Of a stretch of DNA of 64,000 bases, positions 39,835 to 60,287 are shown piece after piece (position 1 is the stretch's first letter; the number at the start of each line of letters is the position of its first letter). The stretch is from Dechloromonas hankyongensis (GTDB lineage Bacteria; Pseudomonadota; Gammaproteobacteria; Burkholderiales; Rhodocyclaceae): positions 1,054,001-1,118,000 of the forward strand of contig NZ_JAKLTN010000002.1 of NCBI RefSeq assembly GCF_022012295.1. Reading direction: 5' to 3'. The notes beneath the pieces are model-generated. The model saw only the letters and a list, made by a program, of their open reading frames with translations, was not told where the DNA came from and searched no databases. The position numbers and the translations under genes are program-made.

Positions 39835-41244
39835 CTATGCAGCAAGAGGTATTGCATCGTTTGCCGCTCCCTCTGCAGGTTTCACGGCAGGCAGATCAAC
39901 AACGTGCGCGGAGCGTTTATTCAGGATTTCCTCCCCAGCGGGAGACATCTTCACACACCAGTAATCCTAGCCATTCGAGCGGGTTTTCGCGAATCCCATC
40001 TGCTTCAAACGCTTGCCGAGGACGATATTGTTCTCAGCCTTGACCCCGAAAGCACTCGCCCACGTCGTGTAGAGCTTGTACAGAGCGGCAGGCTGCATGC
40101 CCTTTTCGGTACAGCGAACCAGTGCCTCATCGGCGAACATCTTGATCTGGTCGGAATCCTCCCGATACTGATCCGACGCAGCCTTCGATGAAGCCGGAAC
40201 CACGAAATACTTGCGGTCCCGCAAAGATTTCAACCCACGAACAGCCACGGCAAAAATGCCGTCCAACTCAGCCGAAAGCTTGGCAGGCAGGTTCATATCC
40301 ATTTCGTCAGCGGTGAAATTACGGTTGAACCGGATCATCACCAAGCGGCGGAAAAACGCATGGGTAACATCGCGCAATTTCGGCAAATGGTTGGTGGCGA
40401 GCATGATGCGCGTGGTCGGGATGAAGGCAAACGGGCGCTCGTACTTGCGCTCGGCCTCGACCATGTCACCGCTCACGATCTGCTTAAGCACCCCGTCATC
40501 CATCACCGTGTTCTCATTGATCTCGGAACTCATCAGCAGCAGTTTTCCATCCAGTTCGGCCAGCGCACGACGATTACACAAGCGCTGGATCGGTGCGCTG
40601 TAGACGTTTTCATGACCGACTAACTCGGCCATCAGCTTCAGCAAAACAGACTTGCCGTTACCGCCATCCCCAACGCAGACGACAAATTTCTCGAAGCTGG
40701 TATCAGGAATCAGGCAAAGCCCCATCCATTCACGCATGAACTGGATTTTCTGATCGCGGTCGTCATCATCACGAAACACGTCGCTCAGGAACTTCTCGAA
40801 GACCGGTGCTTGTGCGTCCGGGTCCCAATCAACATTGCGGCCAGAGCGCAGATGCATCCTGGGATCGTGCTGAACAAGCTGATACGTCGTCATATCGAGC
40901 GCACCGTTTTTGAAGCAGACGAAGTTGTGATTCGGCTTGAAGTCGCTACCCTTCACCACGCAAGTAGTCTTCAGCATAGCGAATAGCTCGCGCACGTATT
41001 TGGTTGCAGCGCCAGAACCAAAAAACTCAGTGATCGAACGCAGAATATCGGCCTGTTCATCCTGATCGACCCAGTAGCCGCTCGAATACGCCAAAAATCC
41101 GTTGTGCAGATACACGAGGCCGCCCGGATAGTATTTGCTGAGGAATTCCTTAACGGCGTTAGTTGCAGTTTCAGGAACCGGCCAGCCGGTAGCCATTGGT
41201 TCGGTGCTGGTTGAGGTAGTGGCGATGATTTCATTGTTTTCCAT
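39835..41244 (-). CDS. SF3 (P4/D5-type) replicative helicase, with in-frame TAG near its C-terminus
   Basis: The translated protein is 425 residues (stop TAG at 39969-39967). Walker A GDGGNGKSVLLK (~190), Walker B LDGKLLLMSSEI and motif C FIPTTRIMLATNHLP identify a superfamily 3 helicase of the phage P4 alpha/D5 kind; there is no primase domain. After the TAG the same frame continues for 43 codons (DYWCVKMSPAGEEIL...) to 39835, right before the terminator, so an ancestral Lys/Gln-type codon was probably lost. It directly follows the polymerase gene (11 bases) and should unwind DNA for it. Confidence 0.88.
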
Positions 41245-41255
41245 GATTTGCTCCC

Positions 41256-43913
41256 TTAGTTAATTGCAATAAATTTTTCGATTTCGATGTTCGGGAACCC
41301 TTCCACAAGCAGCGTTTTCAGTTCCGCTGTACGAGGCGTCAATGGCACTGCGTGCTCAATGAATTTCGACCGCACGGCGTTTTTCACTTCACTATCTTTT
41401 GTCGGATAACCACGCTCAGTAAGCCAGGCAGCCAACTCGGGATAGGTCATGGTTTTGATCAATCCACAGAGGCCTTGCGTGTAGGCACGCAAGAACAAGC
41501 GGCGGAACACATCCGTGATGCCGCCGCTTGTGGGCCTAATTCCAAAACTCCGCCCGCAACCATTGGTCAGGCGATCCCGTACCAGCGCAAACTGGTAGTG
41601 ATCCTCCCAGTCATTGAAATCACCGAGGGTTTTCAGGCAGTGTTTTTCCCGCCAGCCATCGAATACGGCCCGTGCGCGCTCAAACTCCGCCAAGTCATTC
41701 CATGGCACGCTAGTCAGCGAAAGGTGCTCTCCGTCAGCAACAGAAATTTCGAGCGGATCAAGCAAGCGGCGCTTGAAGTCGAACTCAAGGTTCAGCCTCG
41801 ATTGCCGAGTCAGGCGAACAACATCGGCATCCTTTACCCACTGCTCACGAAATGGCGTGAAAGGCCGAGTAATAGTCATGTCACCGGGGCAGCGATTCAT
41901 GAACAAATCGACCATGAAATCGTTGTGCAAGGCAGATTCAACCTGCGGCGACACACCAGCTTTTGCGAGAATGAATGGGTCGCTCTCGAACGGGATAGCC
42001 GTGAGCTGGCCACGAGTTTTCATGGCAATCAGCTGACGCACACGATGCTTGCGTTCCAACATCTTGCTGCCAGGAGCAACACGCTGACAGAGCGTCTGAA
42101 AACGCTTCGCCATCGGCCCATTCAACGCCAACTCGGACTCGTCGGCATCCGTGATGAAACCGTCTGTCGTGGCGCTAATCACATTGCGATGCGGAGGGAT
42201 TCCAGCAATTTGCTCGCTGAGAACAGCGCGAACGAAGCCCGTCGTATGTGCTGCGATGGCGGCATTCGTCAAAATGGAATGAGGCAGTTCAACACTCTTC
42301 ATCCCCTGAGAGTCGAAGACCGTCTTTGCCTTCAGGCCTTGCGCTGTTTTCCCGTACAGGCTGTTTCCGAGGAGCTTGGAGTACAGCTCAAAGAGGGAGC
42401 CTTTGACGAACGACTTCCGGAGCGAGCGGATGTGCATCACGTACGGCTCGAACAGCCGGTTATCACCCTCACACCACGGGAAAATAACGCCGTGCAGAAT
42501 GTCGAGCTTGCAGCCGAGATTCAGAGCCACCTCAATCTCTGGTGCTGTGCAATACGACAGCCCCGTCAGGGGATAAACCAGCCCGCCATGTGAGTTCCGC
42601 ACAGGCATCGAGGGAAACCGAGTGCCCTTCGGAAAGGCGAACCGCACATAGGCAAACCCGAGGACATGACCGACAAAATCCTGTGGGTTGCGGGAGTACC
42701 AATACCTGTCGTAGTCGATATGGCGCAGATCAACCATGCCCGTTGTATAGGCTCCAGCCAGATCGAAATCGTTGAAAACGCCGATTGTCGTTGGGCCAAA
42801 GGCATAGCACTCATTGCGACCGCCGCTGTAGCAACTGGCAATGAACGGTTCATTGATCGCCCGCATCGGCGAGGGAGATTTCTCGGTTTTCGTTACAACC
42901 CGTTCCCTCGTCGAATTCCAGTAGGTGCTGGAGCCCTCAGTTACACCAAACGCCGCATTGAAATCGACTTGGCTATCTTTAAGCGTCTTCGTGAAGATGC
43001 GAACTGCCAGGCTGCTAGCAGTCGCAGGTAGCGAACGCTTCCCGGCATGCTTTTCAGCGAAATCGAGCAGGTGCAGATAAAACCGGACAGCGATTTCGGA
43101 GTCGCGAAGACCGTATTTTTCGAATGCATGCTTATTGCCCTGCAACAACAGGTCCATCCGTTCCTTGAGATAACCTTCCGGGAGTTCAAGCTTTGGCAAG
43201 TCCAGCCAATCACCGATTTGAGCCAGCGATGTACCCATCGCTACGTGGCCGCCAGCATCAACGAAGCGGACCTTCAAGGTGCGGAACACCCCATCACGAT
43301 CTGTCGCCAAATAGGTTTGGTTGTTCAGCAGGCCATCAAGATCATCCACTTCTGGTTCCAAGAGCACAGAGCTTTTCACCGAAGAAACACGGCCACCGAC
43401 ATTTTCCAGGGCTTGCTTGAACGACACGAGATCGCCAAACGCCTGCAAGTCGATGCGCAGGAAAAAGCCAACCAAAACGACATGGTTCGGCCATTCAAGC
43501 ACCACGCCACGATCCATCGCCTCCTGGATCAGATCGAAAATGATCTTGCAGAAGTGCGGGCGCTGGCTTTTCTCTGGGCCACTCGGATAGACAACCCGCT
43601 GCATCACGCCACACTCACCTACCAGATAAAACTGGAGGCTCAAGATGACGTTGTCGCGCTCTTCATCACCCGGAACGAATTCCGAATCGAAGCCGATATA
43701 GACGGTCGGCCCCTGCCCCTTCTGAGGCTTTCCAGGATCAGCAGCAGTATCGTCAAATTGATTGTCAATTAGCTGTTCCCAGCGCTTTAACTTTGCCTCG
43801 ACATCCTCTTCGATCAAAGGCTCGAAACAATAGGTGTAACATTCCGGTACATATTCCCCTTCCAGCGACTTGCACCAGGTTTCCTGGACAGGAATTTCAG
43901 TCATGTTTTGCAT
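41256..43913 (-). CDS. Family B DNA polymerase, pipolin (piPolB)-like
   Basis: 885 residues; the ATG at 43913 has GGAG seven bases upstream. 3'-5' exonuclease: Exo I FDSEF (~77), Exo III YGLRDSEIAVRFY. Polymerase: motif A NDFDLAGAYTTGM (~383), motif B LLGNSLYGKTAQG (~515), motif C ATTDGFITD (~579; TTD replaces DTD, keeping one Asp as in protein-primed-like PolBs). At ~630 there is MKTRGQL where most family B enzymes have KxY; to my memory KTRG is typical of primer-independent piPolBs. No terminal-protein gene is nearby, which also fits piPolB. Confidence 0.85.
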   Translation of the reverse strand: MQNMTEIPVQETWCKSLEGEYVPECYTYCFEPLIEEDVEAKLKRWEQLIDNQFDDTAADPGKPQKGQGPTVYIGFDSEFVPGDEERDNVILSLQFYLVGECGVMQRVVYPSGPEKSQRPHFCKIIFDLIQEAMDRGVVLEWPNHVVLVGFFLRIDLQAFGDLVSFKQALENVGGRVSSVKSSVLLEPEVDDLDGLLNNQTYLATDRDGVFRTLKVRFVDAGGHVAMGTSLAQIGDWLDLPKLELPEGYLKERMDLLLQGNKHAFEKYGLRDSEIAVRFYLHLLDFAEKHAGKRSLPATASSLAVRIFTKTLKDSQVDFNAAFGVTEGSSTYWNSTRERVVTKTEKSPSPMRAINEPFIASCYSGGRNECYAFGPTTIGVFNDFDLAGAYTTGMVDLRHIDYDRYWYSRNPQDFVGHVLGFAYVRFAFPKGTRFPSMPVRNSHGGLVYPLTGLSYCTAPEIEVALNLGCKLDILHGVIFPWCEGDNRLFEPYVMHIRSLRKSFVKGSLFELYSKLLGNSLYGKTAQGLKAKTVFDSQGMKSVELPHSILTNAAIAAHTTGFVRAVLSEQIAGIPPHRNVISATTDGFITDADESELALNGPMAKRFQTLCQRVAPGSKMLERKHRVRQLIAMKTRGQLTAIPFESDPFILAKAGVSPQVESALHNDFMVDLFMNRCPGDMTITRPFTPFREQWVKDADVVRLTRQSRLNLEFDFKRRLLDPLEISVADGEHLSLTSVPWNDLAEFERARAVFDGWREKHCLKTLGDFNDWEDHYQFALVRDRLTNGCGRSFGIRPTSGGITDVFRRLFLRAYTQGLCGLIKTMTYPELAAWLTERGYPTKDSEVKNAVRSKFIEHAVPLTPRTAELKTLLVEGFPNIEIEKFIAIN

Positions 43914-43983
43914 TTGATTGCTCCAAAAAAAGGGGTAATGGATCAACCACTACCCCCTAGGATCAGTACTTTTTAAATCCAGC

Positions 43984-48010: not shown

Positions 48011-50281
48011 TTGAATTCGTTGCTAAAACACCTCCGTTATGAGTTCGCTACAGCGATAGCGATCCCATCTTCTTCTATCGCATTCGATTCAGACTATGAA
48101 AATCGCTGCGAAGCACTCGTAACGTACTTGTCCAAGTATGATCTCTTGCCGCTGCCAGTGCGCGAAAAAGCATTCTTCTCACATGTCAACAAGAAGTTCA
48201 AAATCAATGCCCATTACTTAGCCGCGTTCTACGAACGCGGGGCCAAGCTCGGCAAGACGTTTAACTATCATCAGAAGGTCGCCATCCAGGAAATCTTTGA
48301 CCGGGAGGAACTCTTCGGTTTGAGCCGTCTATTGGATGACTTCAGTATCGATACTGAAGTATGCGAGACGCTGGCCGCTGCCGCCAGATGCTCATGCCGT
48401 AATGACACGCTCGAGCATTTGCACCTTGAACTAAAAGCTCCTGCGAAACTTAGACGCGAAGTAGGCGAAAGAGATGTGCGAACTGAGATTCTGAAAGCGC
48501 TCTTCGCATCGTTCCTATGGGGAAGTCTTCCTCAGCGAGATATGCATCGATACTTCGATAGCGACTTTAATGAGGAAGGCTATTGTGAGCGATTTTGGGA
48601 TGAACTTCAGCGCCGCACACCACGGCTCTTTCACCGTGACTCGGCTCTTCATTACATCGTCATTGATGAGACCTGGTGTTCGCACTTCCAAGACTATATA
48701 TCGCTTCAGGGCGCAGTGTTGCGACAGGTGCGAGAGAGCTATGTATCGTTGAACAATTACGGCTACTTGGCTGTCATGATCAAGTCGGCATTAGTAGGGC
48801 GACGCGATCACTCATGGGAACTGGCCGCTGACGTGTCGCTTTTTGCAGAAAAGCACGTCGAAAAAACTCTTGACCGGGGTTACTTTCGATTCGACAAGAT
48901 ACGCTCTACGACAGTAGCGCACATTCCGGACCTCGATTTGGGTGAAGCGCGGTTTGAATTGGTTAACGAGGGATTCACGTATCGGGACTGCTTTGTACTT
49001 GAACGGCCGACAGGAGAGGTAAATCAACTTCTGGTCTTTCAGAAGAACCTTCGGGACGAAACAGCCGTTCCTTGCCCTACGTGCAGGTCGAGCCAGATCG
49101 AAGGCAACTCTTACCCCAGCCTGGGTGTGAAGAGTTGGGAATGCTGCAATGCGCTTTGCCCAGACCGAAGCAAGTACAACCGCGGAAAGAGGTACTCATT
49201 CCGCGGGCTAACAATGCAACAGGCCCTCGACGACGAGAGTAACGACATTCCGGCCACATTCGTTCGCAAGTGGCGGAGGGATGTTGTTGCTATAGAAGAT
49301 GATTCAGAGGTGTTGGAACATCTCCTACGCCACTATTCAATGTCAGGTGACGGCGTAACGGTACTATCCAGTCGTCCTGAAGTTTTCAAAGCAACGCTCG
49401 GGCGACAAGTATCTTCCGATCCGCTCCTAACGAGTCCGAGCAGCGATGATGCCGCGTGGTTTTTTAACGCGGCATTCTTCAAACGATATGGAGTGCCAAC
49501 CAAAGCAATTGAACCCGTTACTCTAAACAATCTCGGAAACGATGAACTTAACGTCTTCTGTGGCGACTCACGGCAGGTCCTTTTATCAATCGGTGAGGAT
49601 GTTATCGATGGTGCGGTAACCTCCCCTCCGTACTATAACGCAAGAGAATATTCTCAATGGCCCAACATGTACTGCTACTTGCAGGACATGTTCGAAGTAA
49701 ACGCGCAGGTTTTCAGGGTGCTAAAGCCTGGAGCCATTTATTACTACAACATATTTGATTACTTCGATAACGAAAATATTGTTGCACAATCGGCCATGGG
49801 CCAAAAGCGGCTCATTCTTTCTGGCTATACAGTTGATCTATTTCGAAAAATTGGATTCCAGTGCTTAGGAAATATCGTATGGGATAAAGGGGAAATCGAA
49901 GGAAAGCGAGGGTTCAATGCCGGAAATTTCTCACCGTTCTACCAGTCCCCCTTCAACTGCTGGGAACATGTCCTCGTATTCCAAAAGCCTGGAAGCGAGC
50001 CTGCCCCATCCAAGACGGGAATACTTCGTGCCAAACCTGTAATCAAAATGGTTCGGGGTAAAAATGTTCATGGACATACCGCCCCATTTCCAGAAGAGAT
50101 ACCACTGCTCTGTATGGAAACGACACCCAAAAACGGACTAATCCTCGATCCATTCGGGGGAAGTCTGACAACGGGACGGGTTGCCGTCGCGTATGGGCGA
50201 AGGGCTATCTGCATCGAGCAAAGCCAAGACTATTGTGACCTCGGGCTGAAGCTCTATCACGAAGGTAACAAAATCATGTAA
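48011..50281 (+). CDS. DNA methyltransferase (class beta, TSPPY) with long N-terminal extension
   Basis: 756 residues; start is TTG (MNSLLKHLRYEFATAIAIPS). The methyltransferase sits at the C-terminal end: motif IV TSPPYYNAREYS (~536) comes before motif I-type LDPFGGSLTTGRVA (~711), the beta order typical of N4-cytosine or N6-adenine enzymes. The first ~500 residues are unusual and include a zinc-ribbon-like stretch (CPTCRSSQIEG ... CCNALCPDRSK, ~355-380). It is convergent with the HNH nuclease gene (13-base gap), suggesting a restriction-modification pair with the extension as specificity domain. Confidence 0.85.
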   Translation: MNSLLKHLRYEFATAIAIPSSSIAFDSDYENRCEALVTYLSKYDLLPLPVREKAFFSHVNKKFKINAHYLAAFYERGAKLGKTFNYHQKVAIQEIFDREELFGLSRLLDDFSIDTEVCETLAAAARCSCRNDTLEHLHLELKAPAKLRREVGERDVRTEILKALFASFLWGSLPQRDMHRYFDSDFNEEGYCERFWDELQRRTPRLFHRDSALHYIVIDETWCSHFQDYISLQGAVLRQVRESYVSLNNYGYLAVMIKSALVGRRDHSWELAADVSLFAEKHVEKTLDRGYFRFDKIRSTTVAHIPDLDLGEARFELVNEGFTYRDCFVLERPTGEVNQLLVFQKNLRDETAVPCPTCRSSQIEGNSYPSLGVKSWECCNALCPDRSKYNRGKRYSFRGLTMQQALDDESNDIPATFVRKWRRDVVAIEDDSEVLEHLLRHYSMSGDGVTVLSSRPEVFKATLGRQVSSDPLLTSPSSDDAAWFFNAAFFKRYGVPTKAIEPVTLNNLGNDELNVFCGDSRQVLLSIGEDVIDGAVTSPPYYNAREYSQWPNMYCYLQDMFEVNAQVFRVLKPGAIYYYNIFDYFDNENIVAQSAMGQKRLILSGYTVDLFRKIGFQCLGNIVWDKGEIEGKRGFNAGNFSPFYQSPFNCWEHVLVFQKPGSEPAPSKTGILRAKPVIKMVRGKNVHGHTAPFPEEIPLLCMETTPKNGLILDPFGGSLTTGRVAVAYGRRAICIEQSQDYCDLGLKLYHEGNKIM

Positions 50282-50294
50282 TTGCGCTTAGTCT

Positions 50295-51503
50295 CTACGT
50301 CTGAAGTATGAACTCAACAGTAGTTGCCTGATCCGGCACAGCGTCGAATAGTTTCTTTCCTCGAGCAGTTGGACCCAGCGCTGCGCTCTTGGTCCGGGTT
50401 CCTTGTACCCAAGAAATCGATGCTGTAGCTTGAGCGTCGATAAGCCATGTTGCCATGATCTTCATCCCACGCGGTGGGAGCTTGTTAATCTGTGCACCAT
50501 TTCCAGAATCTGAGCCCACAGTGGCGGCCAGGTCCCCTTCAACAGCCACTTCGTCGAGTGTTTCTATGTCATGCAGGATCTCAGACGCTGACGGAGCATC
50601 AGGCGCCACATCAACATTAAGCGAGGCTTTATTGCGTTTCGGCGGCGTATACGCAATCGCAAGGCATTCGGCACCTTCATCTGGGAAGTAGTGAGAGAAC
50701 GGTAGGCTCTCAACGCGAAATCGCATTGCCTGAAACCGGACAATGCCGCCGCCATTCTCGTGGCAAGCAACGACGAGAAGATGCTGCGATGCAAGCGCTC
50801 TCTCGAAAATTACTGTTGCAGTGTCCACGTCTGGAACTTCATCAGCATCCCACGACCGCGTGATTCCACCATCAGGCCATTGCAAGATGTTGCACTGCGA
50901 AAATTCACCATCAAGGAGGTAGTTTGACGAACCGTTGTGTTGGAGCCAATGGGCCATTGCCCATCCCTCCTGCATCCGGACATCTGCCATTGTCATTCCG
51001 TAGATACGGCACATACGGATGAAGTCACTGAGCGTTCGAGGCCTAAAGCTAAACAGAATCCACATTAGAGCTGTCTCAGCAGTCAGATGTGTCTGACCGC
51101 CGAATTCATGCGAGGGTCTCTTGATAACATTACAGCGTCGGCAGCGAAGAACCATATTCTCAATGTAGTCCGCGTCCAACGGGTTGTCGTGAGACTCACG
51201 TGGAATGTTGTGGTCGGCTTGTAGTTCGAGTCGCGTACCACAGTCCCGGCATTTTCCATCCTGGGTATAGAACCAGTCCATGACTTTTGCCATGACATTA
51301 CCCTTGCCGTACCTTAATTTGAACCCTTCAGATGAAGCGAGACTCGTCCCTACTTGCGACGGATTCATGTGCCCCAGAGTTAGGGTAGTAATCTGTTTCC
51401 ATGTGAGTAGCCCATCGGAGATTAGACGCGACAACAACGCCTTCCATTCCTCATCGCTCCACTGCTCATCGTTGAATTTGAACGCTGCCATGTTGCCTTC
51501 CAT
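50295..51503 (-). CDS. HNH endonuclease, putative restriction enzyme of the adjacent methyltransferase
   Basis: 402 residues from a start at 51503 (the ATG at 51491, MAAFKFNDEQWSDEEWKALL, is the alternative). HNH core at ~84-130: CRDCGTRLELQADHNIPRES then ENMVLRCRRCNVIKR, i.e. paired CxxC with the His-Asn-His scaffold. The remaining ~270 residues are not recognised and could carry recognition. Convergent orientation with the methyltransferase is common in type II systems. Confidence 0.78.
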   Translation of the reverse strand: MEGNMAAFKFNDEQWSDEEWKALLSRLISDGLLTWKQITTLTLGHMNPSQVGTSLASSEGFKLRYGKGNVMAKVMDWFYTQDGKCRDCGTRLELQADHNIPRESHDNPLDADYIENMVLRCRRCNVIKRPSHEFGGQTHLTAETALMWILFSFRPRTLSDFIRMCRIYGMTMADVRMQEGWAMAHWLQHNGSSNYLLDGEFSQCNILQWPDGGITRSWDADEVPDVDTATVIFERALASQHLLVVACHENGGGIVRFQAMRFRVESLPFSHYFPDEGAECLAIAYTPPKRNKASLNVDVAPDAPSASEILHDIETLDEVAVEGDLAATVGSDSGNGAQINKLPPRGMKIMATWLIDAQATASISWVQGTRTKSAALGPTARGKKLFDAVPDQATTVEFILQT

Positions 51504-52272: not shown

Positions 52273-53343
52273 ATGAGCATCGTTAAGCGAGGAAATAGCA
52301 AGTACTGGTACATGCAATTCCAGTTCAATGGGCAGACCTATATCCGCTCCACCCGAACCACCAGCAAGAAAACAGCAGAGCAGATGGAGGTCGAATGGAA
52401 GGCCCAGCTACATGCACAGCAATATCGAGGTAGAAAGCCACGGATTTTGCTGGCAGATGCATTCCAGCAATACAAGGTATCAAAGAAGGGAATTGCCAGC
52501 TACGCCAATTTGCTTGCCCACGAAGCCGTATTGCTCCGCCTGCTCCCGTTGAAGAAGTACATCGACGAAATCACGGCACATGACCTGGAGCGGTTCAAGC
52601 AAGCACGCATTAACGAAGGCGTAGGTGCGGAAATTATCAAGTATGGGTTGCTATTGGTTCGTGGCACATGGAAATTCAGCAAGAAATTGGGCTACCAAGT
52701 CAGCGAACTTGAATTTCCCACCGTGAAAATTCCGAAGGTGCCATTGCGCTACCTGAGCAGCGAGGAGGAAACACGCCTGCTTAGCGAATTAGCCCCTAAC
52801 CGGGAAGGCGCCGGCCTGAAACCAAGGGCTGAGCGCAGCGAAGAACTGAAGCGGGTCATGCAGGACGCCTACGACCTCGTGATTTTGCTGCTTGATACCG
52901 GCGCTCGGTATAGCGAAATTGCCAATATCGAATGGCAACGCATAGACCTCGCAGAGAAAGCAATTTACCTCTGGCAGTCAAAGGTAGAAAACGAGACGGT
53001 TTTGTACATGACCGACCGGGTATTCGACGTGCTTTCTCGCCGGGAAAAAGGAAAGACCGGCCCCTATGTCTTCAGCAATCGGGACGGCGAAGCCCGTGGT
53101 TACTGCACCCAGTCAATCCGCAAAGCAATTTTACGGGCTGGATTACAGAGGTGCCGAGTGCATACCCTGCGCCACACCCTCGCCTCTCGCCTTGTCCAGA
53201 ATGGAATGAGCGTTTACGAAGTGCGCGAAATCCTCGGCCACAGCGACATCAAGACCACCATGCGTTACGCCCACCTTGAATCCCGTCAGGTGACATCAAA
53301 GGCGCGTGACGTAATCAACCAACTCAACCAACGCAACGGCTAA
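52273..53343 (+). CDS. Tyrosine recombinase / phage-type integrase
   Basis: 356 residues. N-terminal AP2-like arm-binding start (MSIVKRGNSKYWYMQFQFNG), SAM-like core-binding domain (~60-150), and catalytic residues in GARYSEI (Arg ~211), HTLRHTLASRL (His-x-x-Arg ~296) and GHSDIKTTMRYAHL (His ~322, Tyr ~331). It may be the original integrase of a nested module or a second recombinase of element B; E. coli pipolins are known to carry tyrosine recombinases. Confidence 0.9.
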   Translation: MSIVKRGNSKYWYMQFQFNGQTYIRSTRTTSKKTAEQMEVEWKAQLHAQQYRGRKPRILLADAFQQYKVSKKGIASYANLLAHEAVLLRLLPLKKYIDEITAHDLERFKQARINEGVGAEIIKYGLLLVRGTWKFSKKLGYQVSELEFPTVKIPKVPLRYLSSEEETRLLSELAPNREGAGLKPRAERSEELKRVMQDAYDLVILLLDTGARYSEIANIEWQRIDLAEKAIYLWQSKVENETVLYMTDRVFDVLSRREKGKTGPYVFSNRDGEARGYCTQSIRKAILRAGLQRCRVHTLRHTLASRLVQNGMSVYEVREILGHSDIKTTMRYAHLESRQVTSKARDVINQLNQRNG

Positions 53344-54695: not shown

Positions 54696-55523
54696 TTAGT
54701 CTTCATCAAGCACCGAAAAGTCGAGATTGATGATGATTTGAGACAGATCGATCTTCTCCTTTTTGCAAAAGCGCTTGATATCTACCCACAGAGGCCATCC
54801 AGAAGATGGCGATGCTATCCCAACCATTTGAACACCGAAGTCATTGGTGTCATTGTCATACGTAAATCCATGATCGTCCAAGATGGAAAAGCACTCCCTC
54901 AATTCACCCGGCGCGAGGTTAGTGGCCTGCTGCACTTCAGGAACTGAAACCTCCAGAGAGTCTGAGAAGCGTCCCTTCTTTCCTCGATTTACGAGAATTA
55001 GGAATAGCCCTCGTGAAGGTATAGGCACCTTCGCAAGCTTGATTGTTACGCGCTTCAATTCTTTCAATGCATCAGCTAGTTCCTCGTCGGAATTTCCCCA
55101 GCTGAGCACTTGATCAAGTTTTTTGAGATCCTTCGCAAAGACCGGTTCTGTCAGCGTCGTGTGGTCAGTTACGGTCTGAAGCATAGAGCCGATGACATCA
55201 GAAAATAACTTCTCGTGTTCTTCCTTAATTCGCTTCATGCGATCTACAGGGAACTTCAGAACATCGTCCGTTTCTACGTGATGGTCATAACACATGAGAA
55301 CTAAATTGGACGGGTGTCGCCGCTGCTCGTTTGTTTGATGCTTGTTAAAACGCTCGCCGCCAGGTTCAGCTGCCTCGATGTGGCAAATATGTCCAACAAA
55401 GACGCCCTTCGCGTTGAATAAAGCCTTATTGCATCCCGGAAACGCACAGCGATTGCCGGATTTCAAATAAAGCTCCCTCACTGTTTCACGCGTTGGAGCA
55501 AGTCTCTTCGGTATCTCGGGCAT
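54696..55523 (-). CDS. HNH-type nuclease-like protein (275 aa)
   Basis: Start MPEIPKRLAPTRETVRELYL. N-terminal zinc/HNH-like domain: NRCAFPGCNKALF, GHICHIEAAEPGGERFN and NLVLMCYDHHVETDD (residues ~24-90). The C-terminal half is helical with a winged-helix-like segment (VPEVQQATNLAPGELRECFS). Proteins with this N-terminal domain occur in antiphage islands. It is the last of three same-strand genes following the serine recombinase. Confidence 0.75.
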   Translation of the reverse strand: MPEIPKRLAPTRETVRELYLKSGNRCAFPGCNKALFNAKGVFVGHICHIEAAEPGGERFNKHQTNEQRRHPSNLVLMCYDHHVETDDVLKFPVDRMKRIKEEHEKLFSDVIGSMLQTVTDHTTLTEPVFAKDLKKLDQVLSWGNSDEELADALKELKRVTIKLAKVPIPSRGLFLILVNRGKKGRFSDSLEVSVPEVQQATNLAPGELRECFSILDDHGFTYDNDTNDFGVQMVGIASPSSGWPLWVDIKRFCKKEKIDLSQIIINLDFSVLDED

Positions 55524-57151: not shown

Positions 57152-57856
57152 TTAGAAACTTCGGAAGACCTCGGACCGGTGGAATTCCATATAAATTTCA
57201 TTCTCAGATTTAAGGGCGACCCGCAACTTCGGCTGAATGCCAAGTTTTTCAGGCTCGGACATCTGAGGGGAAACTTTTATCTCCCCATCTTTCTCGAACG
57301 TTATGAGTCCAGCATCAAAAGCTCTATCGAGGTTCGGGATAAGCAGTAAGCCATTGAATTTGTCCATTCGCTCAGCATTGGACGAGGCACGCCATGGCTT
57401 GATATGCGAAGCGACAAGGAGATTGCAGTCCGTGAAGCCGGTAACTGAACACCCTCCCCACAATCCGATCAGGCGCTGCCTAAACGTACCTTGACCTATC
57501 CGGGCTTTGACGAGGCTATTCTTCTCGGTCATAGAAATACTGGGATCGGCAATGATCGTTTCGATATCCGACTCGATATCACTATCGAACCCTTCCGAAA
57601 GGTATTCCGCATATTTCAGCAGCGCACTACTATACATGTGATGACCACGCTCGTTGCGTTCGTGGAAAATCGGCAGCTCACGAATCTGCTTCGAGATTGA
57701 CTCAAACTGAGTCCGACTCCGAATCGCGGTTAAAGGCCCTTCAAGCAGCCCATTGTCCATACCCCACTCTGTCAAAGCTCCTTTAATTGCTCCGTCATAC
57801 TTGAGCGAGGTAGATGCAGAGAGCCCCTTGTGCAACATCCAGTCTTCAAAAATCAT
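57152..57856 (-). CDS. HNH endonuclease (HNH_2 type, restriction-like)
   Basis: 234 residues. The C-terminal part is the HNH_2 domain: IGQGTFRQRLIGLWGGCSVT, LLVASHIKPWRASSNAERMD and NGLLLIPNLDRAFDAGLITF (residues ~115-185). It is known from many orphan restriction endonucleases. No companion methyltransferase lies next to it; the nearest is at 48011. Confidence 0.82.
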   Translation of the reverse strand: MIFEDWMLHKGLSASTSLKYDGAIKGALTEWGMDNGLLEGPLTAIRSRTQFESISKQIRELPIFHERNERGHHMYSSALLKYAEYLSEGFDSDIESDIETIIADPSISMTEKNSLVKARIGQGTFRQRLIGLWGGCSVTGFTDCNLLVASHIKPWRASSNAERMDKFNGLLLIPNLDRAFDAGLITFEKDGEIKVSPQMSEPEKLGIQPKLRVALKSENEIYMEFHRSEVFRSF

Positions 57857-58350: not shown

Positions 58351-60156
58351 TTAATCAGCCAAGGCCTCTGAGGGCTTGAAAACCTTGAAGGCCAAGCTCT
58401 CGAACAGCATGGGGATATCCCATTCAGTAGGCGGCGGCGATTTCTGGTCGAGGACTTTCCCGGACGACAGAACCGTTCGATGTTCGCCATTGTGGAATTC
58501 GAGCATGAGCATCTTGTTCTTCTTGTTGGGCTGAGCGTCGAGCTTGGCACACAACGCCTTGACCGTTTCATCGTCAAACTCGTCCGAAGCGATCAAGTCT
58601 CGCCGATAGTTCTCGATTTCTTCCTCGGAATACCACCGGCCACCGGGATAGGTTGCAATCCGCTTGATGACTCGCTTGACAGCTTCGGACAAGCGGATGC
58701 GCAGCAGATGCAACTCATCACCCTCCAAGCTTTCAAGTTGCTGTAGCAATGCAACGATCAGGTTTTGCTGGACCGAGGCATCTACCCGCGAATTTGTTAG
58801 GCGCAGTATTGTTTCTTCCGATTGTCTCAACTCGTCATTCAATCTGCCGAGCTTGGCTTCATTTGCCGTCATCCGATCAATAATCAACTGGGAAGGCTCA
58901 GCCAGTGAGCCGCTTTCCAATACGTCTAGCAAGGTCTGGTTGCGGTTATTCACATCAATGATTTCTTGCTTTATCCGCTCGTGGCGCTGCATCTCGGCAT
59001 TGAGTTCAATTTCACCACGCCGATCTACACCAAGCACCTGAGAGAGATCGACGGCTTTGCAGAATTTCAACACCAACTGCTCGAAATCGTCGTAAGTCCA
59101 TTGGATGTAGTTGCACTTGATACCCCGGCGAGCATTGCTACACGCCACGTATTTCCTTTCACTGTGGTTGCCGCTGAGTCGTTTTCTCATGGAGCCACCC
59201 ATATTCATCGGCCCGCCGCAGTATCCACAGCGCAGCAATCCGGAAAACAGATTGCTCAGTTGTTTGCCCTTGCTAACACCACCGCGAGTACGCCGCGCTT
59301 TTCGGGCTGCCGTCACCAGCAACCATTCTTCTTTCGACATGATCGCCGGATAGTAATCCGGTATTTCTTCGAGTTCTGTCTCTTCCCCGTCTCGTTGTTG
59401 CTTCAGCTGCAACGCGCCATAAACGGAGACGCTATGCAGTATTTTCTCAACATAGGAGTTTTGCCAGCCATTCGATTTCGTCGAAAAAACCGGCACACCT
59501 TCCTTATTGAACATTTTGACGATGGTTGCTCCACCGACGCCATCCATAGACATCTTGAAGATGCGCCGCACAACCTCTACACGCTCAGGGATGAATTCAA
59601 AACCCTTTTCGTCAGCAGTCGGCCTCAACCAATACGGACCGCGTTTCGTCAGGCGTTTGTTGGCAATATTTTTCCGCTTGGCATCCCACGAAGACCGGAT
59701 GCGGTGACTTTTCATCGCGGATTCTTCGTTGGCTCGGCTCATGATCACGATGGACATGATCAGGCTCGACCAATTTTCATTCACCTTTTCGTAGCTATAA
59801 ACCTGCTCATCAGCCAGTGTGACGACGGTAATTCCAGCTTTCAGGATGCCCATGAATATATGCAGTGCATCCATCACCTTGTCCCGTGACAGTCGATCCA
59901 AGCTCTCCACAAGAAGAAAAGACCCTTGAGGAATTCGTTTCTCCTCAACCAATCGCAGGAATTGGCCTAAAGCCCCCTTATTGAGATTGGATCGGTCAAA
60001 CGCAGACATACCGAGATCGCTCAGGTTCAACTCGGTATCGAGGTCCAAACCATGCTTTGCCGCATACTCCACGGAAAGCTTCGTTTGACGGGCTACTGAA
60101 TCGCCTCGTTGCTGTTTGACACTTGAAAATCGAATGTAGGAGTAAGCCTTAGGCAT
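58351..60156 (-). CDS. Large serine recombinase (integrase of element B)
   Basis: 601 residues. Resolvase domain with catalytic Ser11 in YIRFSSVKQQ, ESLDRLSRDKVMDAL and the recombinase domain (GPYWLRPTADEKGFEFIPER...), then a zinc ribbon (LLRCGYCGGPMNMGG, YVACSNARRGIKC; ~315-350) and a long coiled coil (residues ~385-470). This is the full architecture of phage-type serine integrases, which join attP to attB unidirectionally. It lies ~130 bases inside the right junction of element B, as integrases usually do. Confidence 0.93.
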   Translation of the reverse strand: MPKAYSYIRFSSVKQQRGDSVARQTKLSVEYAAKHGLDLDTELNLSDLGMSAFDRSNLNKGALGQFLRLVEEKRIPQGSFLLVESLDRLSRDKVMDALHIFMGILKAGITVVTLADEQVYSYEKVNENWSSLIMSIVIMSRANEESAMKSHRIRSSWDAKRKNIANKRLTKRGPYWLRPTADEKGFEFIPERVEVVRRIFKMSMDGVGGATIVKMFNKEGVPVFSTKSNGWQNSYVEKILHSVSVYGALQLKQQRDGEETELEEIPDYYPAIMSKEEWLLVTAARKARRTRGGVSKGKQLSNLFSGLLRCGYCGGPMNMGGSMRKRLSGNHSERKYVACSNARRGIKCNYIQWTYDDFEQLVLKFCKAVDLSQVLGVDRRGEIELNAEMQRHERIKQEIIDVNNRNQTLLDVLESGSLAEPSQLIIDRMTANEAKLGRLNDELRQSEETILRLTNSRVDASVQQNLIVALLQQLESLEGDELHLLRIRLSEAVKRVIKRIATYPGGRWYSEEEIENYRRDLIASDEFDDETVKALCAKLDAQPNKKNKMLMLEFHNGEHRTVLSSGKVLDQKSPPPTEWDIPMLFESLAFKVFKPSEALAD

Positions 60157-60169
60157 GACGGCATAGCCT

Positions 60170-60287
60170 TGTTTTTATAGCGTGACGTCATTATACGAAT
60201 GCTTACGTTTTTATAGCTACTAGATCGAGCTTTGATGTCTATTAAAACGTAACTTCAGGCCGAAATACGTTTTAATAGACATTTGAT
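60170..60287. repeat. Right attachment junction of element B with inverted repeats
   Basis: ATGTCTATTAAAACGTA (60235-60251) and TACGTTTTAATAGACAT (60266-60282) are a perfect 17-bp inverted repeat around 14 bases. Two degenerate copies (TTGTTTTTATAGCG near 60170 and ACGTTTTTATAGCT near 60206) lie closer to the recombinase gene. The core GAT (60285-60287) then joins comEC. The left junction carries one copy of the same motif. These are likely recombinase binding sites, and their position in front of the recombinase gene suggests autoregulation. Confidence 0.75.

Follow-up and report, generated by a model that had tools for sequence, protein, structure and literature searches.

The window analysed here is a stretch of 64,000 nucleotides of the Dechloromonas hankyongensis genome (RefSeq assembly GCF_022012295.1, contig NZ_JAKLTN010000002.1, positions 1,054,001 to 1,118,000), and the subject of this report is a pair of convergent genes, 13 bp apart, that encode a DNA methyltransferase (MTase) and an HNH nuclease. 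The MTase gene (48011–50281, plus strand) begins with a TTG codon at 48011, with the sequence GAGGGA upstream, and encodes a protein of 756 amino acids. The HNH gene (50295–51503, minus strand) encodes 402 amino acids, or possibly 398, because the ATG at 51491 (residue 5) has a better upstream sequence (AAGG). Both open reading frames (ORFs) are uninterrupted, and they most likely constitute a Type II-like restriction-modification (R-M) pair. The first-pass annotation of the window had also regarded them as an R-M pair, with an MTase domain confined to the last third of its protein, a zinc-ribbon-like block and no known family in the front part, and a nuclease with a long unrecognised C-terminal part.

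Searches against Pfam assigned a single domain to the MTase, N6_N4_Mtase (residues 532–744, E = 1.2e-20), which agrees with the proposed location in the last third of the protein, and revealed no second domain at E ≤ 0.1; across the assembly, the MTase of the pair is the only protein matched by this model. The active copy of the enzyme, delimited by Pfam and by structural matches, covers residues 505–756 (49523–50278). It retains the beta-class order, in which the catalytic motifs IV–VIII, including TSPPY (residues 537–541, 49619–49633), precede motif X/I, which includes the S-adenosylmethionine (AdoMet) motif I DPFGG (residues 713–717, 50147–50161). The part in front of it was divided, on the basis of profile searches, motif comparisons, alignments and a structure model, into: (i) an all-helical, unrecognised N-terminal domain (residues 1–205, 48011–48625), (ii) a region best read as a degenerate beta-class catalytic half that lacks PPY (residues 207–345, 48629–49045), (iii) a zinc-ribbon target-recognition domain (TRD; residues 346–430, 49046–49300) and (iv) an eroded motif X/I (LLRHYSMSGD, with no DPFxGS; residues 431–475, 49301–49435). 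No nuclease or helicase domain was found within residues 1–531 with Pfam at E ≤ 0.1, and a weak match to DUF6581 was recorded for 1/24 family members (E = 0.003).

The family was assembled in steps. A scan of genome contigs with the single sequence identified no relatives, while one full-length relative from the same phylum (G126, 42% identical) was reached through the PADLOC model PDLC03236. A two-sequence MTase profile then retrieved 22 genome loci, 21 of them full-length and one (L041) matching over 59 residues only, as well as four viral loci, among which L042 is full-length and intact. With the window counted, the family comprises 24 intact full-length members encoded in the standard code. 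They are recorded from Bacteroidetes, actinobacteria (Nocardioides, Demequina), proteobacteria, Firmicutes, Desulfobacterium and Ardenticatenales. The catalytic and AdoMet motifs are intact in all 24, and the four cysteines of the zinc-ribbon block noticed in the first-pass annotation (C355, C358, C378 and C383) are invariant in 24/24.

The nature of this block became apparent from a comparison with viral beta-type zinc-ribbon MTases, collected at eight loci (two of them on one contig and two more with identical proteins). The family alignment was divided into six sub-profiles, which were run against every ORF of the collected loci. In all 24 family members the order is N-terminal block 1, N-terminal block 2, zinc ribbon, mid block, catalytic block and AdoMet block, whereas in the eight viral loci it is catalytic block, zinc ribbon and AdoMet block. 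The viral enzymes (L066, L067, L069, L070, which is identical to L071, L073 and L075) have a homologous catalytic domain and ribbon TRD, and differ in being single-copy, in carrying the ribbon between motifs VIII and X, which is the usual TRD place of beta-class MTases (six distinct proteins), and in having no HNH homologue at the locus. The distance from the EH that closes motif VIII to the GH in motif X, counted identically in both groups, is 102–104 residues in 7/7 viral proteins (6 distinct) and 34–43 in the active copies of 24/24 family members; in the window it is 34 (residues 654–687, 49970–50071). Since the ribbon occupies the TRD place in the viral enzymes and the corresponding spacing in the family is short, the ribbon of the window MTase is a TRD homologue, which the active domain does not have. 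Beta-class MTases carry the TRD between motifs VIII and X, and in the active domain any TRD at that place would have to be very small, the ribbon being located in front instead. Provided that the TRD is indeed the zinc ribbon, it lies N-terminal to the catalytic region, i.e. in a permuted order, in 24/24 members; the order TRD, catalytic region, AdoMet region is the one that we take to be named epsilon. The amino-MTases have been described as falling into six such orders, from alpha to zeta (PMC5867850, PMC3036652).

The single-copy zinc-ribbon form was found in 0/299 bacterial genomes of one phylum, in a search that had no positive control, and in the phylum of the window the matches in 2/299 genomes were the two-copy family itself. 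The Staphylococcus phage PG-2021_1 (MZ417323.1, 12617–13540) encodes a protein 50% identical to the viral MTase L070 over the full length, and the single-copy form is therefore carried by some phages. It may be speculated that phage single-copy MTases protect against systems such as the one described here.

The flanks of the ribbon resemble a beta-class MTase in both sequence and fold. When the profile of the extension was aligned with the viral enzymes using hhalign, residues 224–450 of the window protein matched viral positions 40–269 in one continuous match (E = 6e-32, the bulk of the score coming from the ribbon), which runs from the strands of motifs VII/VIII across the ribbon and into the beginning of motif X/I (consensus EMLIRHYSLxGD). 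With the flanks taken separately, the score of the motif X/I flank (residues 425–508) was reached by 0/300 column-shuffled profiles and that of the catalytic flank (residues 205–345) was equalled by 1/300. The profile of residues 1–200 scored at chance level (145/300 shuffles reached its score) and had no Pfam match. In the putative dead copy, PPY is missing at the expected place and DPFxGS is missing after GDxV.

A divergent MTase encoded on a phage contig stretch (L043, with L045 identical) adds to this comparison. It forms a single frame of 845 codons if TGA is read as glycine (table 25, the code listed for SR1/Gracilibacteria), and TGA accounts for 146/215 glycine codons in the long plus-strand frames of L043. 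N-terminal block 2, the ribbon and the catalytic and AdoMet blocks follow the family order, the mid block is weak (E = 0.0045), block 1 was not detected and 39 residues occupy the TRD place. After this member was added to the profile, 0/200 shuffles exceeded the score of either flank. In a BLASTP comparison, its N-terminal half is 38% identical to the active viral enzyme L066 over 170 columns (E = 2e-28, six-sequence set), in an alignment spanning motif VII and the ribbon and reaching into motif X/I.

The first-pass annotation had proposed structure prediction of the extension. An AlphaFold2 model computed on the family alignment had a mean predicted local distance difference test (pLDDT) value of 85.3 and a predicted template modelling (pTM) score of 0.86 (pLDDT 87.7 for residues 1–430 alone). 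In VIA-align comparisons, the closest structure to residues 207–430 was TTHA0409 (Z 9.7, 131 residues, root-mean-square deviation 3.5, chain positions 37–209), in a match that takes in the TRD part; this protein is described as a putative beta-class N4-cytosine MTase (PMC5173035). The next MTase matches of the same range were MboIIA (Z 8.6), BceJIV (7.5) and CcrM and PvuII (7.4 each), and the fold matches of this range are mostly methyltransferases. The active copy matched beta-class MTases with Z up to 21. Residues 1–205 are helical in the model and remain unrecognised; they were hardly probed by the fold searches, which covered residues 509–756 of the whole model and 208–430 of the 1–430 model. 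Taken with the profile comparisons, residues ~207–475 are best read as a degenerate beta-class MTase copy carrying the TRD, and the earlier description of the front as belonging to no known family does not hold for this part of it.

In the partner protein, the HNH motif (residues 85–128, 51120–51251, minus strand) is recognised by Pfam PF01844 (E = 7.3e-5) and by the alignment of homologues, in which C85, C88, H98, N116, C121 and N125 are invariant in 25/25. The long C-terminal part mentioned in the first-pass annotation is indeed present (residues 200–402, 50298–50906, minus strand), and its ~200 residues match no Pfam model. A comparable extension was seen in 9/25 aligned homologues, and the remaining 16 stop 10–28 residues past W186. 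No restriction-enzyme model of Pfam, NCBIfam or PADLOC matched the window HNH protein. A weak match to PtuB of the Septu system was obtained (E = 1e-4), and no ATPase family corresponding to PtuA was found among the 8 neighbouring proteins scanned, a subset of the ORFs.

An HNH homologue adjoins the MTase gene in 24/24 full-length family members, with a nearest gap of ≤375 bp. It lies downstream and convergent in 9/24 and upstream and divergent in 15/24. None was found at the 89 control MTase loci (0/8 viral beta-type zinc-ribbon, 0/70 other viral and 0/11 other loci), many of which have short flanks. The distances among the MTases and among the HNH proteins are correlated (Mantel r 0.77, with 0/999 permutations reaching r) across 23 loci; the HNH gene of L020, cut by a contig end, was excluded from the HNH alignment and from this test. 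In all of the five genomes that were searched whole, every HNH match lay inside the MTase locus (5/5), and an HNH search of the phylum to which the genome of L024 belongs gave a match in 1/296 genomes, the already-known one. At two Nocardioides loci (L023 and L025) the MTase is followed downstream by a long and a short HNH homologue, which possibly form a heterodimer. By the conserved pairing and the correlated distances, the two genes do look like the R-M pair that had been suggested.

The explanation that we consider probable is that of a Type II-like R-M pair in which the MTase is a fused duplicate whose copies share the labour between them. It would have arisen from a beta-class ancestor, equipped with a zinc-ribbon TRD, by head-to-tail duplication and fusion of the copies; copy 1 (residues ~207–475) would then have lost the PPY and DPFxGS motifs and kept the TRD, and copy 2 (residues 505–756) would have kept catalysis and AdoMet binding and lost the TRD. 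Since a ribbon homologous to a TRD is located in copy 1 and none in copy 2, copy 1 would serve recognition and copy 2 catalysis: the zinc ribbon of the dead copy would read the site, the live copy would flip and methylate the base, and the adjacent HNH enzyme would cut DNA that lacks the mark. The mark is probably on cytosine N4 because of the TSPPY motif, which makes the methylated base a guess from sequence; SPPY is said to be common to most bacterial N4-cytosine MTases (PMC8885841). A more far-reaching version, which we regard as rather unlikely, is that the protein is a covalent pseudo-dimer and a frozen intermediate of permutation, whose dead copy acts as a specificity subunit for both the MTase and the HNH enzyme, with one TRD for the two. 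With regard to such borrowed specificity, 16/25 HNH homologues have no more than 28 residues beyond the conserved core, but nucleases of the HNH type can be small and still possess a specificity of their own.

Several observations weigh against the fused-duplicate explanation. The similarity of the catalytic half is weak when taken alone (hhalign probability 12–25%, 1/300 shuffles), and a comparison of the N-terminal half with the active copy of the same protein gave no signal (168/300 shuffles reached the score). Among the structural matches, the IF3 C-domain (Z 8.8) outranks MboIIA (8.6) and Alba reaches 7.6, both on residues ~211–348 only; because these domains score comparably, the MTase fold match stands only a little above a common alpha/beta arrangement. 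The best Foldseek E value was 4.5e-3, and no match reached 0.001 in the viral library. The IF3 and Alba matches and the weak signal of the catalytic half would fit a different history, in which domain shuffling brought the ribbon TRD to the front and residues 207–345 are an unrelated IF3-C/Alba-like alpha/beta DNA-binding domain, with no dead copy at all. We judge it improbable, as the match to the active enzymes extends on both sides of the ribbon and in order, the best structural match is TTHA0409 with its TRD part included, and the mid block contains a remnant of motif X/I.

The conserved pairing, too, has points against it: no HNH gene was detected within the 17-kb locus of the divergent phage MTase member, a solitary HNH homologue of 190 amino acids is located on the viral contig L062 (5980–6552) at a locus without a family MTase, and MTases without an HNH gene could be under-sampled, because the family was sampled via catalytic-domain patterns. 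The phage MTase and the solitary gene would be expected if the HNH protein were a homing-type endonuclease travelling beside an orphan MTase rather than one half of a restriction pair. There is little chance that this is so, given the pairing in 24/24 members in both gene orders and the correlated distances, and an insertion into another gene was not seen in the window. It is equally doubtful that the active copy recognises its site via a very short TRD and that the extension performs another task, e.g. nuclease holding or dimerising: the TRD of M1.HpyAVI, given as ~30 residues (PMC5173035), means that a stretch of 34–43 residues is no proof of a TRD-less active copy, but it is the extension that harbours the homologous counterpart of the TRD of the relatives, and its cysteines are invariant.

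Around the pair, from ~12 to 60 kb of the window (12000–60200), the G+C content is ~49–57%, compared with 61–65% outside. A large serine recombinase (58351–60156, minus strand) is encoded at the right edge of this island and a tyrosine integrase (52273–53343) next to the pair, and it is therefore probable that the pair resides on an integrated element. Further HNH-like genes are present in the island at 54696–55523 (weak) and 57152–57856. At 39967–43946, a D5/primase-like helicase adjoins a type B DNA polymerase of 896 amino acids of the organellar/viral kind, which suggests a phage- or plasmid-like replication module of the island. Just outside the serine recombinase gene there is an imperfect palindrome (60238–60277, CTATTAAAACGTA ... 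TACGTTTTAATAG), possibly part of an attachment site. No tRNA genes were found in the window.

As an enzyme, the MTase is of the Type II kind and is already covered by PADLOC and Pfam. The PADLOC model PDLC03236 (MTase_II, 912 positions) matches 24/24 family members (best E = 8e-102) and has the same order, zinc ribbon (415–569) and then catalytic domain (648–895). The suggestion in the first-pass annotation that a specificity part is attached to the MTase is supported by the homology of the ribbon with the viral TRD insert, while the architecture itself is not unique, being shared by 24 members and, for the ribbon and catalytic domain, by this model. PDLC03236 is a database label (Type II methyltransferase) that names no partner, TRD or dead copy, and over its first ~400 positions nothing matched at E ≤ 1e-20. 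At E = 1e-20 the model matched 3/398 and 6/299 genomes, with the ribbon stretch present in G000, G126 and G451 only, and it also matches the Thermotoga maritima control genome.

The division of labour proposed here resembles that of the Type III enzyme EcoP15I, in which one Mod subunit is described as recognising the DNA and the other as methylating it (PMC4490356); EcoP15I differs in that its Mod subunits are separate chains and its Res subunit is driven by ATP, whereas the window system consists of one chain and an HNH partner. In the Type II system MhoVII of Mycoplasma hominis, the MTase is likewise a fusion of two MTases (PMC12898733); according to the title, both of its parts are active 6mA methyltransferases, unlike the window MTase with its putative dead copy. 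A published model derives permuted MTases from duplication and subsequent truncation (PMC5944983); it concerns C5 MTases that end as single permuted copies, whereas the window MTase would retain remains of the first copy. A partial MTase on the Staphylococcus saprophyticus plasmid NZ_CP054439.1 is 39% identical, has 35 residues in the TRD place and is convergent with an annotated restriction endonuclease of the BstXI family. This plasmid suggested BstXI as the parent system, but the idea was rejected, since M.BstXI itself resembles Type I enzymes in consisting of M and S subunits (PMC4335341; see also PMC3874165). No similarity was detected between the BstXI-family endonuclease and the window HNH protein (L016 searched at E 0.01), and the latter had no match in the plasmid (E 1e-5) and phage collections, though 9 plasmid records hold BstXI-family relatives.

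In a literature search, which left most subscription papers out of scope, neither the dead-copy layout nor this HNH partner was found described. Present annotation probably overlooks such pairs, because the partner nuclease matched no restriction-enzyme model in the libraries searched. Domain order differs among the classes of DNA amino-MTases, and duplication with subsequent loss has already been proposed as the route between them. If the explanation favoured here is true, the MTase would be a single-chain version of the EcoP15I split between recognition and methylation, with the division of labour made permanent, and a scattered family in which both copies are retained would provide comparative evidence for the duplication-loss route.

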